A stretch of 46,635 nt of DNA from an uncultured Bacillota bacterium (GTDB lineage: Bacteria > Bacillota_I > Bacilli_A > RF39 > UBA660), in NCBI GenBank assembly GCA_900318075.1, contig ONJI01000008.1, positions 1 through 46,635 of the forward strand. The letters run 5' to 3'. Below, piece by piece: positions 2 through 11,113 of this stretch. Made by a program: the position numbers and the translations under genes. The notes under the pieces were generated by a model. That model made no database searches. It was not told the DNA's origin and worked only from the letters and a program-made list of their open reading frames with translations. Positions within the stretch are counted from its first letter, which is position 1, and every line of letters starts with the position of its first letter.

Positions 2-2539
2 ACTGGATATAGGAATGTTTATATACCATCATTATTTAAATATAATCAATTTTTAGTTATTAGTGATGGTGTTACTGCAAAAGCTGGTACTATTACAAGT
101 CCTTATTCTAGATTTAGTGATTGGAAAAAAGTAGAAGATACTGATGAAGTATATGAAAATATGCCTACACACGAAACTTTATTTAAAGGTATGTTTAGAA
201 AAGATAGACTTTTAGATATAATTGAAAACTTTATATTATTTAGTGATGATAAGAAGATACTTTCTCAATATCACCAATATTTTGGTGTAAAAAAGGCAAT
301 AGTTTCAACTGTAACTAAAGGTGTTAAAACTGGTAAAGCAGGAATAATTTGGCATACTCAGGGTTCTGGTAAATCATTTAGTATGGTATTCTATTCAGGA
401 AATATGATTAAAATGCTTAACAATCCTACAATTGTTGTAGTAACTGATAGAAATGATTTGGATAATCAATTATATGAAACTTTTGTTAAATGTGATTATT
501 ATTTAAAGCAAAAACCTCAAAAAGCCGAATCAAGACAATCATTAGATGAAATGTTAAAAGATAGATTATCAGGAGGAATATTCTTTAAAACACATCAAAA
601 ATTTGAAGAAGAAACAGGATTATTTACAGATAGAGATGATATTTTAGTATTAGTTGATGAAGCTCATAGAAGTCATTATGGATTAGAAGCAACTATGAAA
701 ATTGATTATGAAACAAATGAGGCAAAAGAAAAATTTGGTACTGCAAAATATCTTCATAATGCTTTACCAAATGCTATTTATATTGGATTTACTGGAACAC
801 CAGTAGAAACAAAAGATAAATCTACATCATCTATATTTGGTGATGTTATAGATACTTATGATATGACGCAAGCAATCCTTGATGGTTCTACTGTACCAAT
901 TATGTATGAATCAAGAATGGCTAGAGTAGGTTTAAATCAAAAAATATTAGATCAAATAGATGATTATTATAAACAAATTGAAGAATCTGGTGAAGCTGAT
1001 GATTATGCTATTAATAAATCAAAACAAATGATGGCAAAAATATCTCAAGTTATAGAAGATCCAGATAGATTAGAATTAATAGTAAAGGACATAATAAATC
1101 ATTTTGAAGAAAGAAAAGATATGGTTGCAGATCATGCAATGGTTGTTGCATATTCAAGAAAAGCAGCTTACACAATGTATCAAAAATTCCTAGAATTAAG
1201 ACCGGATTATAAAGATGTTGTTAATATGATAATTACTCCATCTAATAAAGATTCTGAAGAAATGCAAAAAGCAATTGGGACTAAAAATGATAAGAAAGAA
1301 TTAGAAATTAGATTTAAAAATGAAGCTGATGATCCTAATGAAAAATTTAAAATTGCTATTGTAGTAGATATGTGGCTTACTGGATTTGATGTGCCTAGAC
1401 TTGGAGTTATGTATATAGATAAACCTATGAAAGCACATAATTTAATGCAGGCTATTGCTAGAGTTAATAGAGTATATAAAACAAAACCAGCAGGATTAAT
1501 TGTTGATTATATCGGATTAAAAGCATGGTTGTTAGATGCTTTAAAAACATATACTTCTAGAGATCAAAGACAAGTAGTTGATAATAATGAACTAGTAAAT
1601 ACTTTAAAAGATAAAGTTGAAATTATAGATGGAATATTAAATAAATTTGATTATTCAAACTTTAATAATTTAGATAATACAGGAAAATATAATCTTATTA
1701 AAGATGGGGCAAACTTAGTTTTAAGTTCTGAAGATAAAAAGAAAAGATTTATGAAGCATAGTTTAGATGCTAAGAATCTTTATACTTTATGTAATGGTAT
1801 ATTAGAGCAATATTATAAAGACAAAGTATTATTTATTATTTCAGTTAGATCATTTATATCAAAGATAACAAACGAAAATAAATTAGATGTATCAGAAATT
1901 AATAGAAATGTTGGAGTAATGCTTGAACAATCTATTAGAGAAGATGAACTTATTCATTTAGGTGAATTGTCTAGAGGAAATAGTTTAGAATTACTAAGTA
2001 ATACGATGTTATCAAAATTAAAAAGTTTAAAAGATAAGAATGTAGCAGCAGAAATATTATCCAGGGCAATTAAATCGACTATTAGCGAGATTGGAAAAAT
2101 AAACTTAACATTACAAGAAAAATTCTCTACTAAATTTAATAAAATTGTTGATGCTTATAACGAGAGAACTGATTTAGCTGATATAGAAAAAATAATTGAA
2201 GAAATGATCAATTTAAAGAAAGAAATAGAAGAAGAATTAGAAAAAGGAAACGAATATGATTTATCTTCTGAAGAAAAAGCTTTCTTTGATGCTTTAGGTG
2301 CAGATAGTGAAATAAAAGAATTAATGCAAGATGAAACTTTAGTTCAAATAGCTAAGGAATTGGTAGAAATCATAAATGAAAATTTAACCTTAGATGCATT
2401 CAAGAGAGAAGATGCTAGAGCTAGAATTAGAGTTAATATAAGAAGATTGCTAATAAAATACAACTATCCTCCTGTAAAAAGAGAAGGAGCAGTTGAACAA
2501 GTTATAAGGCAAGCAGAGTTAAAATATCAAGAAATATAG
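2..2539 (+). CDS. hsdR: Type I restriction enzyme R subunit, 5'-truncated by window edge
   Basis: This is the motor and nuclease subunit of a type I restriction-modification complex, which translocates DNA and cleaves unmethylated invading DNA. The frame is open from base 2, and codons before the first ATG (161) already read as HsdR (IPSLFKYNQFLVISDG), so 161 is not the true start. Visible SF2 helicase motifs are Walker A (HTQGSGKSFSM, about nt 350-385), the DEAH box (LVDEAHRSHYG, about nt 650-682), GFTGTPVE (about nt 785), and a late helicase block with TGFDVPRLGVMYIDKP and QAIARVNR (about nt 1380-1470). The C-terminal part is the helical region that contacts the methyltransferase. The N-terminal PD-(D/E)XK nuclease and the partner hsdM and hsdS genes must lie upstream. 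The following gene starts 10 nt later and is probably co-transcribed. Confidence 0.95.
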   Translation, partial: TGYRNVYIPSLFKYNQFLVISDGVTAKAGTITSPYSRFSDWKKVEDTDEVYENMPTHETLFKGMFRKDRLLDIIENFILFSDDKKILSQYHQYFGVKKAIVSTVTKGVKTGKAGIIWHTQGSGKSFSMVFYSGNMIKMLNNPTIVVVTDRNDLDNQLYETFVKCDYYLKQKPQKAESRQSLDEMLKDRLSGGIFFKTHQKFEEETGLFTDRDDILVLVDEAHRSHYGLEATMKIDYETNEAKEKFGTAKYLHNALPNAIYIGFTGTPVETKDKSTSSIFGDVIDTYDMTQAILDGSTVPIMYESRMARVGLNQKILDQIDDYYKQIEESGEADDYAINKSKQMMAKISQVIEDPDRLELIVKDIINHFEERKDMVADHAMVVAYSRKAAYTMYQKFLELRPDYKDVVNMIITPSNKDSEEMQKAIGTKNDKKELEIRFKNEADDPNEKFKIAIVVDMWLTGFDVPRLGVMYIDKPMKAHNLMQAIARVNRVYKTKPAGLIVDYIGLKAWLLDALKTYTSRDQRQVVDNNELVNTLKDKVEIIDGILNKFDYSNFNNLDNTGKYNLIKDGANLVLSSEDKKKRFMKHSLDAKNLYTLCNGILEQYYKDKVLFIISVRSFISKITNENKLDVSEINRNVGVMLEQSIREDELIHLGELSRGNSLELLSNTMLSKLKSLKDKNVAAEILSRAIKSTISEIGKINLTLQEKFSTKFNKIVDAYNERTDLADIEKIIEEMINLKKEIEEELEKGNEYDLSSEEKAFFDALGADSEIKELMQDETLVQIAKELVEIINENLTLDAFKREDARARIRVNIRRLLIKYNYPPVKREGAVEQVIRQAELKYQEI

Positions 2540-2548
2540 GAGGTAAAT

Positions 2549-3472
2549 ATGGAAATAGGAAAGTTAAAAGAAGTAGATATAAGAAACCTATGGAAACATG
2601 AACAATATGATTTTTCTGAGTGGTTATCACAAGAAGAAAATATTAATATTTTAAATGATATTTTAGGTTTAACTTTAGTTGATGTATCAAAAGAAGCTTA
2701 TGTTGGTTCATATAGATGTGATTTATTTGCAGTGGATGAATCTACAGGTACTAAGGTAATTATTGAAAATCAGTTAGAACCATCTAACCATGATCATTTA
2801 GGTAAAATTATTACTTATGCTTCTGGATTAGATGCTGAGGTAATAGTTTGGATTGTTAAAACAGCTAAAGAAGAACATAGAAGTGCTATTGAATGGTTAA
2901 ATAACAATACAAATAGTAGGATTAATTTCTTCTTAATAGAGCTAAAAGCTTATACAATAGAAGATTCTATTCCAGCACCATTCTTTAATGTTATTGAAAA
3001 ACCTAATGACTTTATAAAAAACACTAAAATAAATAATAGCTCAGATAATTTAAATAAGTCACAATCTGAAAGACTAGAATTTTGGAATAGATTTAATGAA
3101 ATATTAATCGATAAAGGAAAACCATTCAATGTTAGAAAGGCTACTACTGATCATTGGTATAGCGTTGCTATAGGTACAAGTGCAGCACATGTGGATATTA
3201 CATTAGTTAATAAAGAGTCAAAGATTGGTGTTGAACTATATATTAGTGATGATAAAGAGTTATTTGATAAGTTATTTGAGAAAAAAAATCTAATTGAAGA
3301 TGAATTGGGATTTAAATTAGATTGGCAAAGATTAGATAATAGCAAAGCAAGTAGAATAAAATATTACATTAATGGTTTAGATTTTGATAATCATTCTAAT
3401 TATGATGAGCTTATAAATAAAACAATAGATTTAGCAGTTGTTATGAGAGATATTTTTAAGAAGTATATTTAA
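2549..3472 (+). CDS. DUF4268-type protein with PD-(D/E)XK nuclease-like N-terminus
   Basis: A 307-residue soluble protein with a strong SD (AGGAGG, about 2538-2543) that overlaps the hsdR stop, so it is probably translated from the same message. The N-terminal half has a restriction-endonuclease-like core: a predicted strand ending in RCDLFAVDE (D58), then KVIIENQLE (E73, Q75), spaced like the D...ExQ metal-binding signature of PD-(D/E)XK folds. The C-terminal half (about residues 175-307), which begins after a polar linker and contains FWNRF and HWYSVAIGTS, resembles the DUF4268 domain. Proteins of this type are often found beside type I restriction systems. Function is unproven; an accessory nuclease or anti-phage effector is the likeliest role. 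No transmembrane segment is seen. Confidence 0.75.
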   Translation: MEIGKLKEVDIRNLWKHEQYDFSEWLSQEENINILNDILGLTLVDVSKEAYVGSYRCDLFAVDESTGTKVIIENQLEPSNHDHLGKIITYASGLDAEVIVWIVKTAKEEHRSAIEWLNNNTNSRINFFLIELKAYTIEDSIPAPFFNVIEKPNDFIKNTKINNSSDNLNKSQSERLEFWNRFNEILIDKGKPFNVRKATTDHWYSVAIGTSAAHVDITLVNKESKIGVELYISDDKELFDKLFEKKNLIEDELGFKLDWQRLDNSKASRIKYYINGLDFDNHSNYDELINKTIDLAVVMRDIFKKYI

Positions 3473-3574: not shown

Positions 3575-6088
3575 ATGGAACAAGAATGGCTTTTAATTGA
3601 TATGCATACCCATTCAGAATTTTCTAAAATAAATAAACCATCAGATAATGCAAGAGTAAAAAAAATGACAGCGGAAGAATATGTTAACATTTTAAGTTCA
3701 TATGGTGTTAAAATTTTTAGTATTACAGATCATAATTATTTTTCGAGTAAATATTATGATGAAATTGACAATTATATTAATAACAATTCATTGAATATGA
3801 AATTAATAAATGGTGTAGAACTTGATGTTTATGTTGAATTATCAAATGGAAAACAAGATTTTGTACATATGTGTGTTTATTTTGCAGACGGTGTAAATAG
3901 GAAACAACTTGAAAAAAAAGTTAATTCCTTATATAAGGATAAAAATGGATCTGAACTTAAACCGAACTTTATTGATGTTTTAAATAAATTTTATGAATTA
4001 AAAACAAAATATATAGTTGTTCCACATGGTGACAAAGATAGGGGATTATTTAAAAAACATATTATAGATAATTTAAATCTAAATGAAGTACCAGAATTTT
4101 ATAAATATGCAATGTATAAAATTTTTAATGCGTTTGATGTTTCCCCTAGTTTTTTTGGTGAGAGTGAACAATTTTGGGCGACTAGTTTTTGTGAAAAAAC
4201 AAATAGATTTATAGAATTGACCCAGAATATGACAGATGAAGAGTTAGATAATATTAAATCACATATTACTGATAAAATTAAAAATAGTGATATTATTTTA
4301 ACTACAGAAGAAAAAGAAATATATGATTATGCTTTAAAATATGGTGCATATTTTTCATATTTTAATTTTTCAGATTGGCACAATAATGAGGATTATAATC
4401 CATCGACTAATAATTTTATTTTTGGATCAATAAAAACTGCGTTTGAGTCATTTGAAATGTCAACTTTAGATCCTATATCTAGAATAATAAATACAACGGA
4501 TAAAGAAATTGAAATTCCTAACACAATTTTAGGTAAAGTTCAGTTCAAAATAAGTGGAAAGGAAAAAAAAGTCTTTTTTTCTCCTGGTCTAAATGCAATA
4601 GTTGGAAAAAGGGGAAGCGGTAAATCTTTATTGTTATCAGTAATAAGAAATTTAGTTGATAAAAATGATTCACAAGGTGCACTTATTAAATATAAAAGTT
4701 TAAAGATAAGTGATATATTGGCTCAAAATAGAGGTGGTATAAACATATCATTAGGAAGTTTGAGTTCTGTTGCATTTTTAACACAAGATGAAATCAAAGA
4801 TATATTTGAAAATCCTGAAAAAGCACAAAAAACAATATCTAATTATTTTATTGATGTTAAGGATATAGATATTACAAAAATAAATAGTATCATTGAAATT
4901 GGAGAAAAAATTGTTCCAATAAATGATAATTATAAAAATCTTACATCAAATATTTTGGCAATAAAAAAACAAAATGATTATAATTATGGTGTATATAATC
5001 AAATTAATATAGCTGATTTTAAATCAAATTATAATAATTCTATTAAAAGCTTGAAACAAGCAATAAATAATTTACAAATTATAGGTATTAATTCTGAAAT
5101 ATTAGAAGAACAATTAGAACAATTAATAAAGATTAGAGATGAATATATAAAAATAGTAGATTTATATAATGTTATTATTGCTAATTCTAATGAAACTATT
5201 ATTTCGATTAATTCTAAAAGGACAAGCAATCAAGTTACGCAACGACAAAATATGTTAGATATTCAAAAATCTTTGGAAACAATTAAAAATAATTTTGATA
5301 TACAGTTAAACGTAGAAAAATTGAAGTATTTATTATCAAATCTTAAAATAGATAATCCTTCGGTTGAAATATATAAAAAAGGAAAATATTTATTTGTAAC
5401 ATATTATGAAATTCCTGAAAATATAGGTGATATATTATTAGAAAAAATATTTACTTCAATTACATGGGCTAATTCTATTGATGATATTACTAAATATATA
5501 ATGGGAGTGCCAAATAGAACTTTAAAATCAACTTCTAGTAATTTAGTGAGTGAACTAAAAAAATATATTAATACTGAAAACGTATTTACTGCGAAGAAGG
5601 AATTTTATGAAATTAAGAACAGGAATATAGATTATGTTAGTTCGATAAAAACTTTAGAAGAATTAAAAAAGAATATTGAAGCAAATAATATAGTTAATTT
5701 AACTAATGTATCTCCAGGAATGAAAAGTGTTGCTTATTTAGATATGCTTTTCGATTTAGAAGAAACAATTTTAATTTTAGATCAGCCTGAAGATAATATA
5801 GATAATGATTATATTAGTAATTATTTAGTTCCAAATATAAAAGATAAAAAAAGAATAAAACAATTAATATTTGTTACACATAATCCTTCAGTTGCTGTAT
5901 ATGGTGACGCATTTAATTATATTTATGCGGAAAATAATGATGAAATAACGTATGATAATTTTATTATCGAAAAACCTGAAGATAAAGAAGATTTAATAAA
6001 AATTTTAGAGGGCGGTAGGGCAAGTTTTTCAAATAGAAATAAAAAATTTGGTAATGTATTAGGAGAAGAAGAATATGGAAATATGTAG
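3575..6088 (+). CDS. PHP phosphoesterase fused to SMC/ABC-like ATPase (TrlF-like)
   Basis: An 837-residue protein. The N-terminal PHP domain (about residues 5-290) has a full set of candidate metal ligands: HTH near residue 11, ITDHN, the Glu of NGVELD, the His of VPHGDKDRG, and a late DWHN. The second part is an SMC/RecN-like ATPase with Walker A GKRGSGKS (about residue 343), a central coiled-coil-prone region, Walker B plus catalytic Glu as LILDQPEDNID (about residue 731), and an H-loop FVTHNPSVAVYG (about residue 765). This layout matches proteins that databases call TrlF-family AAA-like ATPases. Position beside type I restriction suggests anti-phage defence: an ATPase sensor controlling a PHP nuclease or phosphatase. 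That role is inferred. The start is chosen on a good SD (AGGAGGT, 3564-3570). The 3' end overlaps the next gene by 14 nt. Confidence 0.8.
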   Translation: MEQEWLLIDMHTHSEFSKINKPSDNARVKKMTAEEYVNILSSYGVKIFSITDHNYFSSKYYDEIDNYINNNSLNMKLINGVELDVYVELSNGKQDFVHMCVYFADGVNRKQLEKKVNSLYKDKNGSELKPNFIDVLNKFYELKTKYIVVPHGDKDRGLFKKHIIDNLNLNEVPEFYKYAMYKIFNAFDVSPSFFGESEQFWATSFCEKTNRFIELTQNMTDEELDNIKSHITDKIKNSDIILTTEEKEIYDYALKYGAYFSYFNFSDWHNNEDYNPSTNNFIFGSIKTAFESFEMSTLDPISRIINTTDKEIEIPNTILGKVQFKISGKEKKVFFSPGLNAIVGKRGSGKSLLLSVIRNLVDKNDSQGALIKYKSLKISDILAQNRGGINISLGSLSSVAFLTQDEIKDIFENPEKAQKTISNYFIDVKDIDITKINSIIEIGEKIVPINDNYKNLTSNILAIKKQNDYNYGVYNQINIADFKSNYNNSIKSLKQAINNLQIIGINSEILEEQLEQLIKIRDEYIKIVDLYNVIIANSNETIISINSKRTSNQVTQRQNMLDIQKSLETIKNNFDIQLNVEKLKYLLSNLKIDNPSVEIYKKGKYLFVTYYEIPENIGDILLEKIFTSITWANSIDDITKYIMGVPNRTLKSTSSNLVSELKKYINTENVFTAKKEFYEIKNRNIDYVSSIKTLEELKKNIEANNIVNLTNVSPGMKSVAYLDMLFDLEETILILDQPEDNIDNDYISNYLVPNIKDKKRIKQLIFVTHNPSVAVYGDAFNYIYAENNDEITYDNFIIEKPEDKEDLIKILEGGRASFSNRNKKFGNVLGEEEYGNM

Positions 6089-6338
6089 AGAAAAAGAATC
6101 AATAATTATAAAAGAAAAAGAAGTTATAGAAGAATATAATTTAAATTCGGAAGTTAATTTTAAAAAATTAATTAACTTTTTACTAAATTTAAATTTATCA
6201 AAAAAAATTACAGTTGAAAGCAAAATTGATGATATGAGTGATGTAGAAGAAAACTTAGTGAAACTTATCAAAAAGATTATTAGTGATTATAATGAAAAAG
6301 TAGATGAATTAGATAAATTTAAACAAGAAAATAAATAA
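6075..6338 (+). CDS. Small helical partner of the PHP-ATPase
   Basis: An 87-residue, highly charged, Lys/Glu/Ile-rich protein with no recognised domain, predicted almost entirely helical. It begins inside the 3' end of the PHP-ATPase gene (14 nt overlap), with an SD-like AGGAGAAG 9-13 nt before its ATG, so translation is probably coupled. A strong terminator follows directly. The overlap and shared terminator suggest the two products act together, perhaps as a regulatory or substrate-sensing subunit. I do not recognise a family. Confidence 0.6.
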   Translation: MEICREKESIIIKEKEVIEEYNLNSEVNFKKLINFLLNLNLSKKITVESKIDDMSDVEENLVKLIKKIISDYNEKVDELDKFKQENK

Positions 6339-6344
6339 AAATCA

Positions 6345-6376
6345 ACTTCTCGTCAACTTGGCGAGAAGTGTTTTTG
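6345..6376 (+). terminator. Intrinsic terminator after the PHP-ATPase unit
   Basis: A perfect 8-bp stem (ACTTCTCG at 6345-6352 with CGAGAAGT at 6362-6369) is followed by GTTTTTG. Confidence 0.9.
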
Positions 6377-9272: not shown

Positions 9273-9767
9273 ATGGAAAAAAGAGATCTATATAATTCAA
9301 ATAGAGAAAAAACTGGAAAATTTATATACAAAGATGAAGAAATCCCAGAAGGATATTATATTTTAGTAGTAGTAATAGTTATGCAAAATAAAGAAGGTAG
9401 ATTTTTAATTCAAAAAAGGAGTAAAGAAAAAGGCGGGAAATGGGCACTTACTGGAGGACATCCTAAAGCTGGTGAAAGCAGTATAGAAGGAATAAAAATA
9501 GAAGTTAAAGAAGAACTAGGCATAGATATAAACGACCCTATTTTATTTAAAAAAACAGGCAAGAAAAATATCTTATGTGATTTATACTATGTTAATCAAG
9601 ATATAGATATTAAGAATATAATTATGCAAAAAGAAGAAGTAGAAGATGTTAAATATGCTTCTTTAGAAGAAATAGATGATTTATTTAATAAAGGCGAATT
9701 TAAGAAAAGCCATTATAAGATGTTTAAAGATGGAATAAAATATTTAAATAAAAATAAAGTCAACTAA
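9273..9767 (+). CDS. Nudix hydrolase
   Basis: A 164-residue intact Nudix enzyme. The Nudix box GHPKAGESSIEGIKIEV plus KEELGI (about residues 67-89) has the G(x5)E(x7)xEuxEExGu pattern, with Lys/Ile-Glu in place of the usual Arg-Glu. The N-terminal part (DLYNSNREKTGKFIYKDEEIPEG) is like Nudix proteins related to isopentenyl-diphosphate isomerase and YfcD, so the substrate is probably a nucleoside diphosphate derivative, but it cannot be named. Its SD (AGGAGT) follows the HTH gene by a few bases and the two likely form an operon. Its stop codon overlaps the stop of convergent cotJC by 4 nt. Confidence 0.85.
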   Translation: MEKRDLYNSNREKTGKFIYKDEEIPEGYYILVVVIVMQNKEGRFLIQKRSKEKGGKWALTGGHPKAGESSIEGIKIEVKEELGIDINDPILFKKTGKKNILCDLYYVNQDIDIKNIIMQKEEVEDVKYASLEEIDDLFNKGEFKKSHYKMFKDGIKYLNKNKVN

Positions 9768-9786
9768 CCGTTGACTTTGTTTTTTG
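9756..9786. terminator. Bidirectional terminator between Nudix and cotJC
   Basis: AAAGTCAAC (9756-9764) pairs with GTTGACTTT (9770-9778), followed by GTTTTTTG. On the minus strand the stem runs into another T-rich tract. The hairpin contains both stop codons. Confidence 0.9.
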
Positions 9787-10333
9787 CTTCTAAATAATAA
9801 TCTCTAAGTTCTTTAAACCTTTGATAATGAATTATTTCCCTTTGCCTTAAAAAAGAGAGTGGCCCTAAAATATCTGGATCATCAGTTAGATCCATTAAAT
9901 GTTCATAAGTAGCTCTCGCTCTTTGTTCAGCTCCCATATCACTTTCAATATCTGCAATATAATCACCAGATACCTTAATATAAGTCATTGTAAATGGATT
10001 TCCAAAGGCATCAGAAGGGAATAAGTCTTTCCCAAACTGTGCATAATGACTATCTAATCCAGCGCGTTTTAATTCTTCTTTAGTTGCTCCTTTCATAAGC
10101 TGATAAAGCATAGCTGATATAATTTCAACATGAGCTAACTCCTCGGTTCCAATATCCGTAAGTAAAGCTTTTCCTCTATCATCAGGCATAATATACCTTT
10201 GATCTAAATATTGCCAAGCTGCCGCAAGCTCACCAGCAGGCCCACCATACTGCGTTAAAATACATTTAGCCATATTTAAATCTCTATTTTTAATATTCAC
10301 AGGATACTGTAATTTTTTTTCGTATTTCCACAT
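9764..10333 (-). CDS. cotJC: Spore coat protein CotJC (manganese-catalase family)
   Basis: A 189-residue protein that aligns by eye along its whole length with CotJC of spore-forming Bacillota, a ferritin-like, manganese-catalase-related protein of the inner spore coat. Metal-ligand motifs are present: an early Glu in GPAGELAAAW, ExxH in GTEELAHVEI, a Glu in the DMGAEQRARATYEHL helix, and ExxH in REIIHYQRF. No signal peptide. It lies 11 nt downstream of the CotJA-CotJB gene and has its own SD. It is expected to be made in the mother cell under sigma-E control, as the cotJ operon is in Bacillus subtilis. Confidence 0.92.
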   Translation of the reverse strand: MWKYEKKLQYPVNIKNRDLNMAKCILTQYGGPAGELAAAWQYLDQRYIMPDDRGKALLTDIGTEELAHVEIISAMLYQLMKGATKEELKRAGLDSHYAQFGKDLFPSDAFGNPFTMTYIKVSGDYIADIESDMGAEQRARATYEHLMDLTDDPDILGPLSFLRQREIIHYQRFKELRDYYLEAKNKVNG

Positions 10334-10344
10334 AACTAAACCTC

Positions 10345-10905
10345 CTAATCATTTTCCCAAGGCCAAGGTGATTCATTCCAAGCCCAAGGATAAGTTTCAC
10401 TTGAGTCTACAAAAAGTGGCCCATATTTATTTTCATATTCTTTTACAGCAATATTAGAATCATTTGAAAGCTCTTTAAATAAATTAATCATATCCCTATC
10501 ATATGGATGAGTATCTAAATATAAATTAACCTCATGAGCGGCAAAACAATAAGCATCAACCTTAGTAAGAAGCTCTGCTTGTTCATTCATAGGCTTAATA
10601 TCATAAGGCCTATTTAACTTATATTGATTAAATAGCGAAGGAAACATATTACCTCTAATAAACCCATTATAAACATCATATAATTGATTAGGAGTAGTAT
10701 CTCCATTATAATTACACATATTAAATTTCATATTATCACCAGCTTGCCCTTTAAGCTTATTTGCAAGTTTCATGTCGATGTTTTTATTAACATAATTATC
10801 TTGCTTGCCTATATTACCAAAACTATTTAAATTACTAAAAGAATTAGGATACATAGAATTAAAATTGTCTGGAAGATCCATCTTATCATTAAAATAGTTA
10901 TTCAT
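10345..10905 (-). CDS. CotJA-CotJB fusion spore-coat protein
   Basis: A 186-residue protein. The C-terminal 75 residues are a CotJB domain: AAHEVNLYLDTHPYDRDMI, then YENKYGPL, ending in tryptophan-rich PWAWNESPWPWEND. Just before it (about residues 78-105) is a CotJA-like segment with the GFIRGNMFPSLF motif (compare the KGTLWPALY type in classical CotJA) and a downstream PY. The first 60 residues are Asn-rich low complexity. In B. subtilis CotJA and CotJB are separate proteins; here they appear fused, making a two-gene cotJ operon with cotJC. The start is supported by SD AGGAGG at 10913-10918. Confidence 0.8.
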   Translation of the reverse strand: MNNYFNDKMDLPDNFNSMYPNSFSNLNSFGNIGKQDNYVNKNIDMKLANKLKGQAGDNMKFNMCNYNGDTTPNQLYDVYNGFIRGNMFPSLFNQYKLNRPYDIKPMNEQAELLTKVDAYCFAAHEVNLYLDTHPYDRDMINLFKELSNDSNIAVKEYENKYGPLFVDSSETYPWAWNESPWPWEND

Positions 10906-11036: not shown

Positions 11037-11113
11037 GGCGGAATTGGTGAAGTGGTTAACACGGCGGATTGTGGTTCCGTTATGCATCGGTTCGATCCCG
11101 ATATTCCGCCCCA
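11037..11113 (+). tRNA. tRNA-His (GTG)
   Basis: A full cloverleaf. The anticodon loop TTGTGGT gives anticodon GTG. The acceptor stem is GCGGAAT (11038-11044) with ATTCCGC (11103-11109). The encoded extra G at -1 (11037) faces discriminator C73 (11110), the hallmark of histidine tRNA. The T loop is GGTTCGATCCC and CCA is encoded (11111-11113). Confidence 0.97.

Follow-up and report, generated by a model that had tools for sequence, protein, structure and literature searches.

The PHP-ATPases known from defence, such as Ppl, are single-gene systems. The E. coli Ppl protein is a PHP 3'-5' ssDNA exonuclease with PHP and NTPase domains that NTPs hold inactive, and its activation involves nucleotide depletion and 3'-OH ends (review, PMC12904381). 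Furthermore, a genome-wide association study of S. epidermidis linked ppl genes called by PADLOC to phage resistance (PMC13152194). A literature search of partial coverage returned no paper describing a PHP-ATPase paired with a small partner, the arrangement that we describe here for an uncultured Bacillota bacterium.

The DNA analysed, hereafter the window, is a stretch of 46,635 nucleotides (contig ONJI01000008.1) in which a first-pass annotation, made from the letters alone, had singled out a candidate two-gene defence system: a PHP metal-phosphoesterase fused to an SMC-like ATPase and coupled by a 14-nt overlap to an 87-codon partner. Both reading frames are present, ORF1 at 3575..6088 and ORF2 at 6075..6338, with exactly that overlap. 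The region comprises the following features:

2..2539, + strand, type I restriction subunit HsdR, a neighbour of the pair, cut by the contig start
2549..3472, + strand, DUF4268 protein, PADLOC candidate defence gene PDC-S11 (392 bits), between HsdR and the PHP-ATPase
3575..6088, + strand, PHP-ATPase gene ORF1, 837 aa; TrlF_fam_ATP 202 bits, Ppl 78, Spaf_1101 68; Pfam AAA_21 and a weak PHP match
3575..4480, + strand, PHP metal-phosphoesterase domain, N-terminal in ORF1 (about residues 1-302), with the weak Pfam PHP match at residues 9-140
4604..4627, + strand, ORF1 Walker A GKRGSGKS (residues 344-351), conserved in the alignment of relatives
5711..5797, + strand, ORF1 ABC signature SPGMKS and Walker B ILILDQPEDN (residues 713-741)
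6061..6077, + strand, ORF2 Shine-Dalgarno AGGAG and ATG, inside conserved C-terminal codons of ORF1 (LGEEEYG), the letters near-identical in relatives
6075..6338, + strand, small partner gene ORF2, 87 aa, pI 5.0, of no known family
6345..6369, + strand, intrinsic terminator after ORF2 (11-bp stem, T tract), closing the two-gene unit

The fusion and the intact catalytic residues claimed for the large protein held up on alignment. The PHP ligand positions H11, H13, H53, E82, H98, H151, D267 and H269 are all in place in the window protein, as are the SMC/ABC ATPase motifs GKRGSGKS (344-351), Q404, SPGMKS (713-718), ILILDQPEDN (732-741) and H769. ORF1 thereby displays the PHP metal ligands, Walker A, Q-loop, signature, Walker B and H-loop that characterize the PHP-ATPase superfamily in the broad sense. 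Across nine aligned proteins, H11, H13, H53, E82, D267 and H269 are invariant, and the exchanges of H98 for Q and H151 for E (window numbering) occur jointly in one sublineage, L021-L025, which may therefore differ in metal binding. Judged by profile similarity, the ATPase half belongs to a known kind: it is related to TrlF, Spaf_1101 and the anti-phage protein Ppl, but divergent. Comparison of ORF1 by sequence with solved structures gave weak matches only, to AriA, SMC and Rad50, and its structure prediction was poor (pLDDT 61).

The partner was said to belong to no known family, and ORF2 indeed had zero matches in NCBIfam, PADLOC and PHROGs, a sub-threshold match only in Pfam, and none by sequence among solved structures. 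Its predicted model is confident (pLDDT 94.5, pTM 0.82) and runs strand-strand-strand-helix-loop-long helix, with a C-terminal helix of 31 residues; the earlier label of a small helical protein thus fits the two helices, one of them long, and misses the three strands that the model also contains. Against PDB and viral models, Foldseek found no similar structure at E<=0.001. With VIA the best match was ExbD (Z 4.9), a likeness that is not convincing and may reflect a common arrangement. A tblastn search of plasmids with the ORF2 protein gave no match, and no phage record containing the window DNA was found. A terminator scan of the region found 2 against 0.4 expected, promoter-like matches were at chance level, and an Rfam scan returned tRNA only. 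Just downstream of the module, the protein encoded at positions 6518-7474 matches a SWIM zinc finger below threshold; further along this 1.1 Mb genome's window lie two genes that by eye resemble CotJ spore-coat genes (9764-10905 and 11038-11113), near tRNA-His.

A single scan, covering 84,980 species genomes, recovered nine relatives over nearly the full length of ORF1, at 45-59% identity, from Faecimonas, Tenericutes, Clostridia, Bacilli, Erysipelotrichaceae and a Patescibacteria bin, whose copy is 50% identical to the window protein. Because near copies occur among them (L018/L019; L022/L023/L024), the nine stand for about six lineages. Conservation of the small ORF beside PHP-ATPase homologues, the check named by the first-pass annotation, was borne out: the small gene is present in 10/10 loci (the window and all nine relatives), unbroken and always overlapping the end of the ATPase gene, by 14-23 nt. 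The relatives' small proteins are 38-49% identical to that of the window, with E19, Y21, L36, L37, N40, L41, E58, L61, DYN at 71-73, K75, E78 and F82 invariant. Outside the overlap the dN/dS of the small gene is about 0.07-0.36, and that of the ATPase 0.09-0.32; by these ratios the small gene is under purifying selection.

The flanks of these loci were surveyed for defence genes, and restriction-modification (R-M) or Gabija genes lie near the pair in six of the seven with readable flanks, a descriptive count. In the window these are the type I HsdR and PDC-S11; HsdR, which the first-pass annotation had placed directly beside the pair, is close by but separated from ORF1 by the DUF4268/PDC-S11 gene (2549-3472). 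Elsewhere the flanks hold a type IIG enzyme and a methyltransferase (L018), Gabija GajA and GajB directly downstream of the pair (L020), an AlwI-type endonuclease and a D12 methyltransferase (L022/L027), a type IIG enzyme and an M.Eco57I-type methyltransferase (L024/L028), or a type III restriction enzyme (L025); L021 has a recombinase only. With the small ORF at every close homologue and defence genes in these flanks, the proposal of a two-gene defence system stands as a candidate. The L022/L027 and L028 loci are IMG/VR or prophage-like contigs. The prophage copy lies among integrase, anti-repressor, replication and terminase genes, and recombinases adjoin two others. In L022, phage genes for replication initiation and the small terminase flank the pair together with its R-M genes; L028 carries another R-M cassette with the same genes downstream. 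In one prophage slot (L022/L027 3778-7804, L024 670-5303 and L028 746-5379), the R-M cassette next to the PHP-ATPase pair is interchangeable, either AlwI-type/D12 or type IIG/M.Eco57I.

Distant PHP-ATPases, including those of mycoplasmas read with code 4, likewise have an overlapping ORF of 84-152 aa, mostly acidic, after the ATPase; the partner is acidic in 18/19 distant members, and partner pI values range from 4.2 to 5.0. The TrlF members examined, Spaf_1101 and most plasmid- or phage-borne members are without a partner-like overlapping ORF. In a maximum-likelihood tree of 45 proteins, in which the partner rows were partly selected for having the ORF and some long branches leave details unsure, a single branch separates partnered from partner-less rows (support 100/97; 200/200 bootstrap trees), with the overlapping small ORF throughout one side. 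A quick tree agrees with this split, and partner presence changes once on the tree versus 15 times in shuffles. Because of the partial selection, we checked loci fetched by ATPase similarity alone, and the overlapping ORF was found in 5/5 (L233, L234, L235, L236, L239); as a control, a comparable overlapping ORF lies beside 5/67 (7.5%) of other ORFs of at least 300 aa in AT-rich loci. Furthermore, the Walker A-B spacing is about 391 residues in partnered ATPases versus about 504 in partner-less ones, Spaf_1101 excepted.

Leave-one-out HMMs indicated that the partners in the L098 group are homologous among themselves. Homology of the window's small protein to distant-group partners found no support, either from profile-profile comparison (probability about 3%) or from HMM scoring, where 871/2400 shuffles beat the window protein; therefore, position, size and charge are the grounds for speaking of one and the same subunit throughout the clade. 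Fusion of the partner into the longer middle region of TrlF was also considered and ruled against, there being no profile match. It is possible, though on balance doubtful, that a two-component state is ancestral in a deep branch of PHP-ATPases (mycoplasmas, gut Bacilli, the Patescibacteria bin and high-GC phage contigs), with a fast-evolving, acidic, co-translated subunit of about 100 residues gating the nuclease, perhaps as a DNA mimic, and with the TrlF/Ppl branch having no such subunit and an ATPase middle about 110 residues longer.

Other ATPase arrangements were encountered in the same searches. At L003/L034/L206 (G150) a truncated, PHP-less ATPase remnant is followed by an unrelated ORF; these loci have no small partner and are apparently degenerate. 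Viral contigs (among them L137, L138, L146, L148, L155, L156, L158, L160 and L189) encode TrlF-like ATPases of about 475-725 aa that have no PHP domain, and in 26/33 cases the next ORF is one of 360-415 aa that by eye combines HEAT repeats with a histidine-kinase-type ATPase. This is another conserved ATPase pair.

Because the two genes are always paired and lie beside restriction in very different bacteria and prophages, they probably constitute an antiviral system of two parts, the small one of which has so far escaped notice. Our leading reading of how it works, held tentatively and a little short of an even chance, is a bicistronic defence module in which an ATP-dependent PHP/SMC-like nuclease is made together with an acidic regulatory subunit that restrains it until infection. 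By analogy with E. coli Ppl, the PHP phosphoesterase would degrade nucleic acid and be gated by the ATPase, whose probable task is to sense or hold either abnormal DNA or DNA ends. The large protein would most likely be a DNA-end-directed nuclease, to which neighbouring restriction enzymes would supply ends. Translational coupling would let the small protein be made in step with the ATPase, which it most likely binds, restraining the nuclease or its access to DNA. What we infer, then, is a putative nuclease, bound and inhibited by its partner, with anti-phage activity. Two points count against this reading: gene overlaps are frequent in small AT-rich genomes, and the Ppl biochemistry that it draws on comes from a distant relative (78 bits).

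The same two-component module could have the opposite sign, with the small protein serving as activator, sensor or assembly factor and the PHP-ATPase inert alone. The same co-conservation evidence speaks for this, subunits produced for joint assembly are usually coupled in translation, and Gabija and Septu act as two-component complexes; but the acidic charge of the partner (pI 4.2-5.0) speaks against direct DNA binding, and the TrlF branch evidently manages without such a partner. We consider this reading unlikely, though a serious contender. Less probable again is a toxin-antitoxin-like pair, in which the free PHP-ATPase would kill or stall the cell (abortive infection) and the small protein would be its antitoxin. 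The small size, acidity and overlapping start of the partner suit an antitoxin, and no clear solo copy of the partner appeared in the scans made, yet the partner has no recognisable DNA-binding domain for autoregulation. At L026, on a low-coverage contig, a frameshifted ATPase accompanies an intact partner, which would be compatible with a toxin and its antitoxin, but the frameshift may be a sequencing error.

Repair and RNA-processing enzymes, too, can contain SMC-like ATPases and PHP domains, and ORF1 has weak profile matches to RecN and RNase RNM. A housekeeping role in DNA or RNA repair, with the defence neighbours incidental, is nevertheless very unlikely given the patchy distribution (a full-length close copy of ORF1 in only 2/196 genomes of the relatives set, the window's own and G068), the copies in prophages and beside R-M or Gabija, and the 50% identity to the Patescibacteria-bin copy. 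Chance ORFs do arise in AT-rich loci, as the control count illustrates, but a spurious small ORF, or one that is a by-product of the reading-frame overlap, is refuted for practical purposes by the comparative data: the identity retained in all relatives, dN/dS well below 1 and a confident predicted fold.

If a whole branch of PHP-ATPases is obligately two-component, the large gene cloned alone would miss activity or prove toxic. Current detection models, which do not include the small gene, would then leave such systems unreported, and the small subunit would offer a direct handle on how these nucleases are kept off host DNA.

Overall, the large protein resembles several curated families and falls below the cut-off of each. 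TrlF (NF045780) has the same PHP and SMC-like ATPase domains, the DQPEDN Walker B and the SPG signature, and is the best-scoring family for ORF1, which at 202.3 bits does not reach its cut-off of 350. TrlF members that score above this cut-off or close to it mostly measure 873-1074 aa, with a median Walker A-B distance of about 504 residues, versus about 391 in ORF1, and those examined are stand-alone genes with no partner-like overlapping gene, unlike the window; the long Walker A-B region and the stand-alone gene are features of the members examined here and lie outside the curated definition. Ppl (NF042955; PADLOC PDLC02208) combines PHP and ATPase as ORF1 does, but is a distant relative (78.4 bits against a cut-off of 1000) and is described as a single-gene system, whereas the window module has two genes. 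Spaf_1101 (NF045781) has its domains in the same order and Walker A and B a similar distance apart (382-388); ORF1 scores 68.2 bits against its cut-off of 475, and L129, a true member at 962 bits, lacks an overlapping partner gene. Gabija (GajA/GajB), which adjoins the pair in L020, likewise couples an ABC-type ATPase nuclease to a second protein, but its nuclease domain is TOPRIM rather than PHP and its second protein is a helicase rather than a tiny acidic subunit. Set beside these systems, the new part of the locus appears to be an obligate small subunit, together with the branch of PHP-ATPases that it appears to mark.
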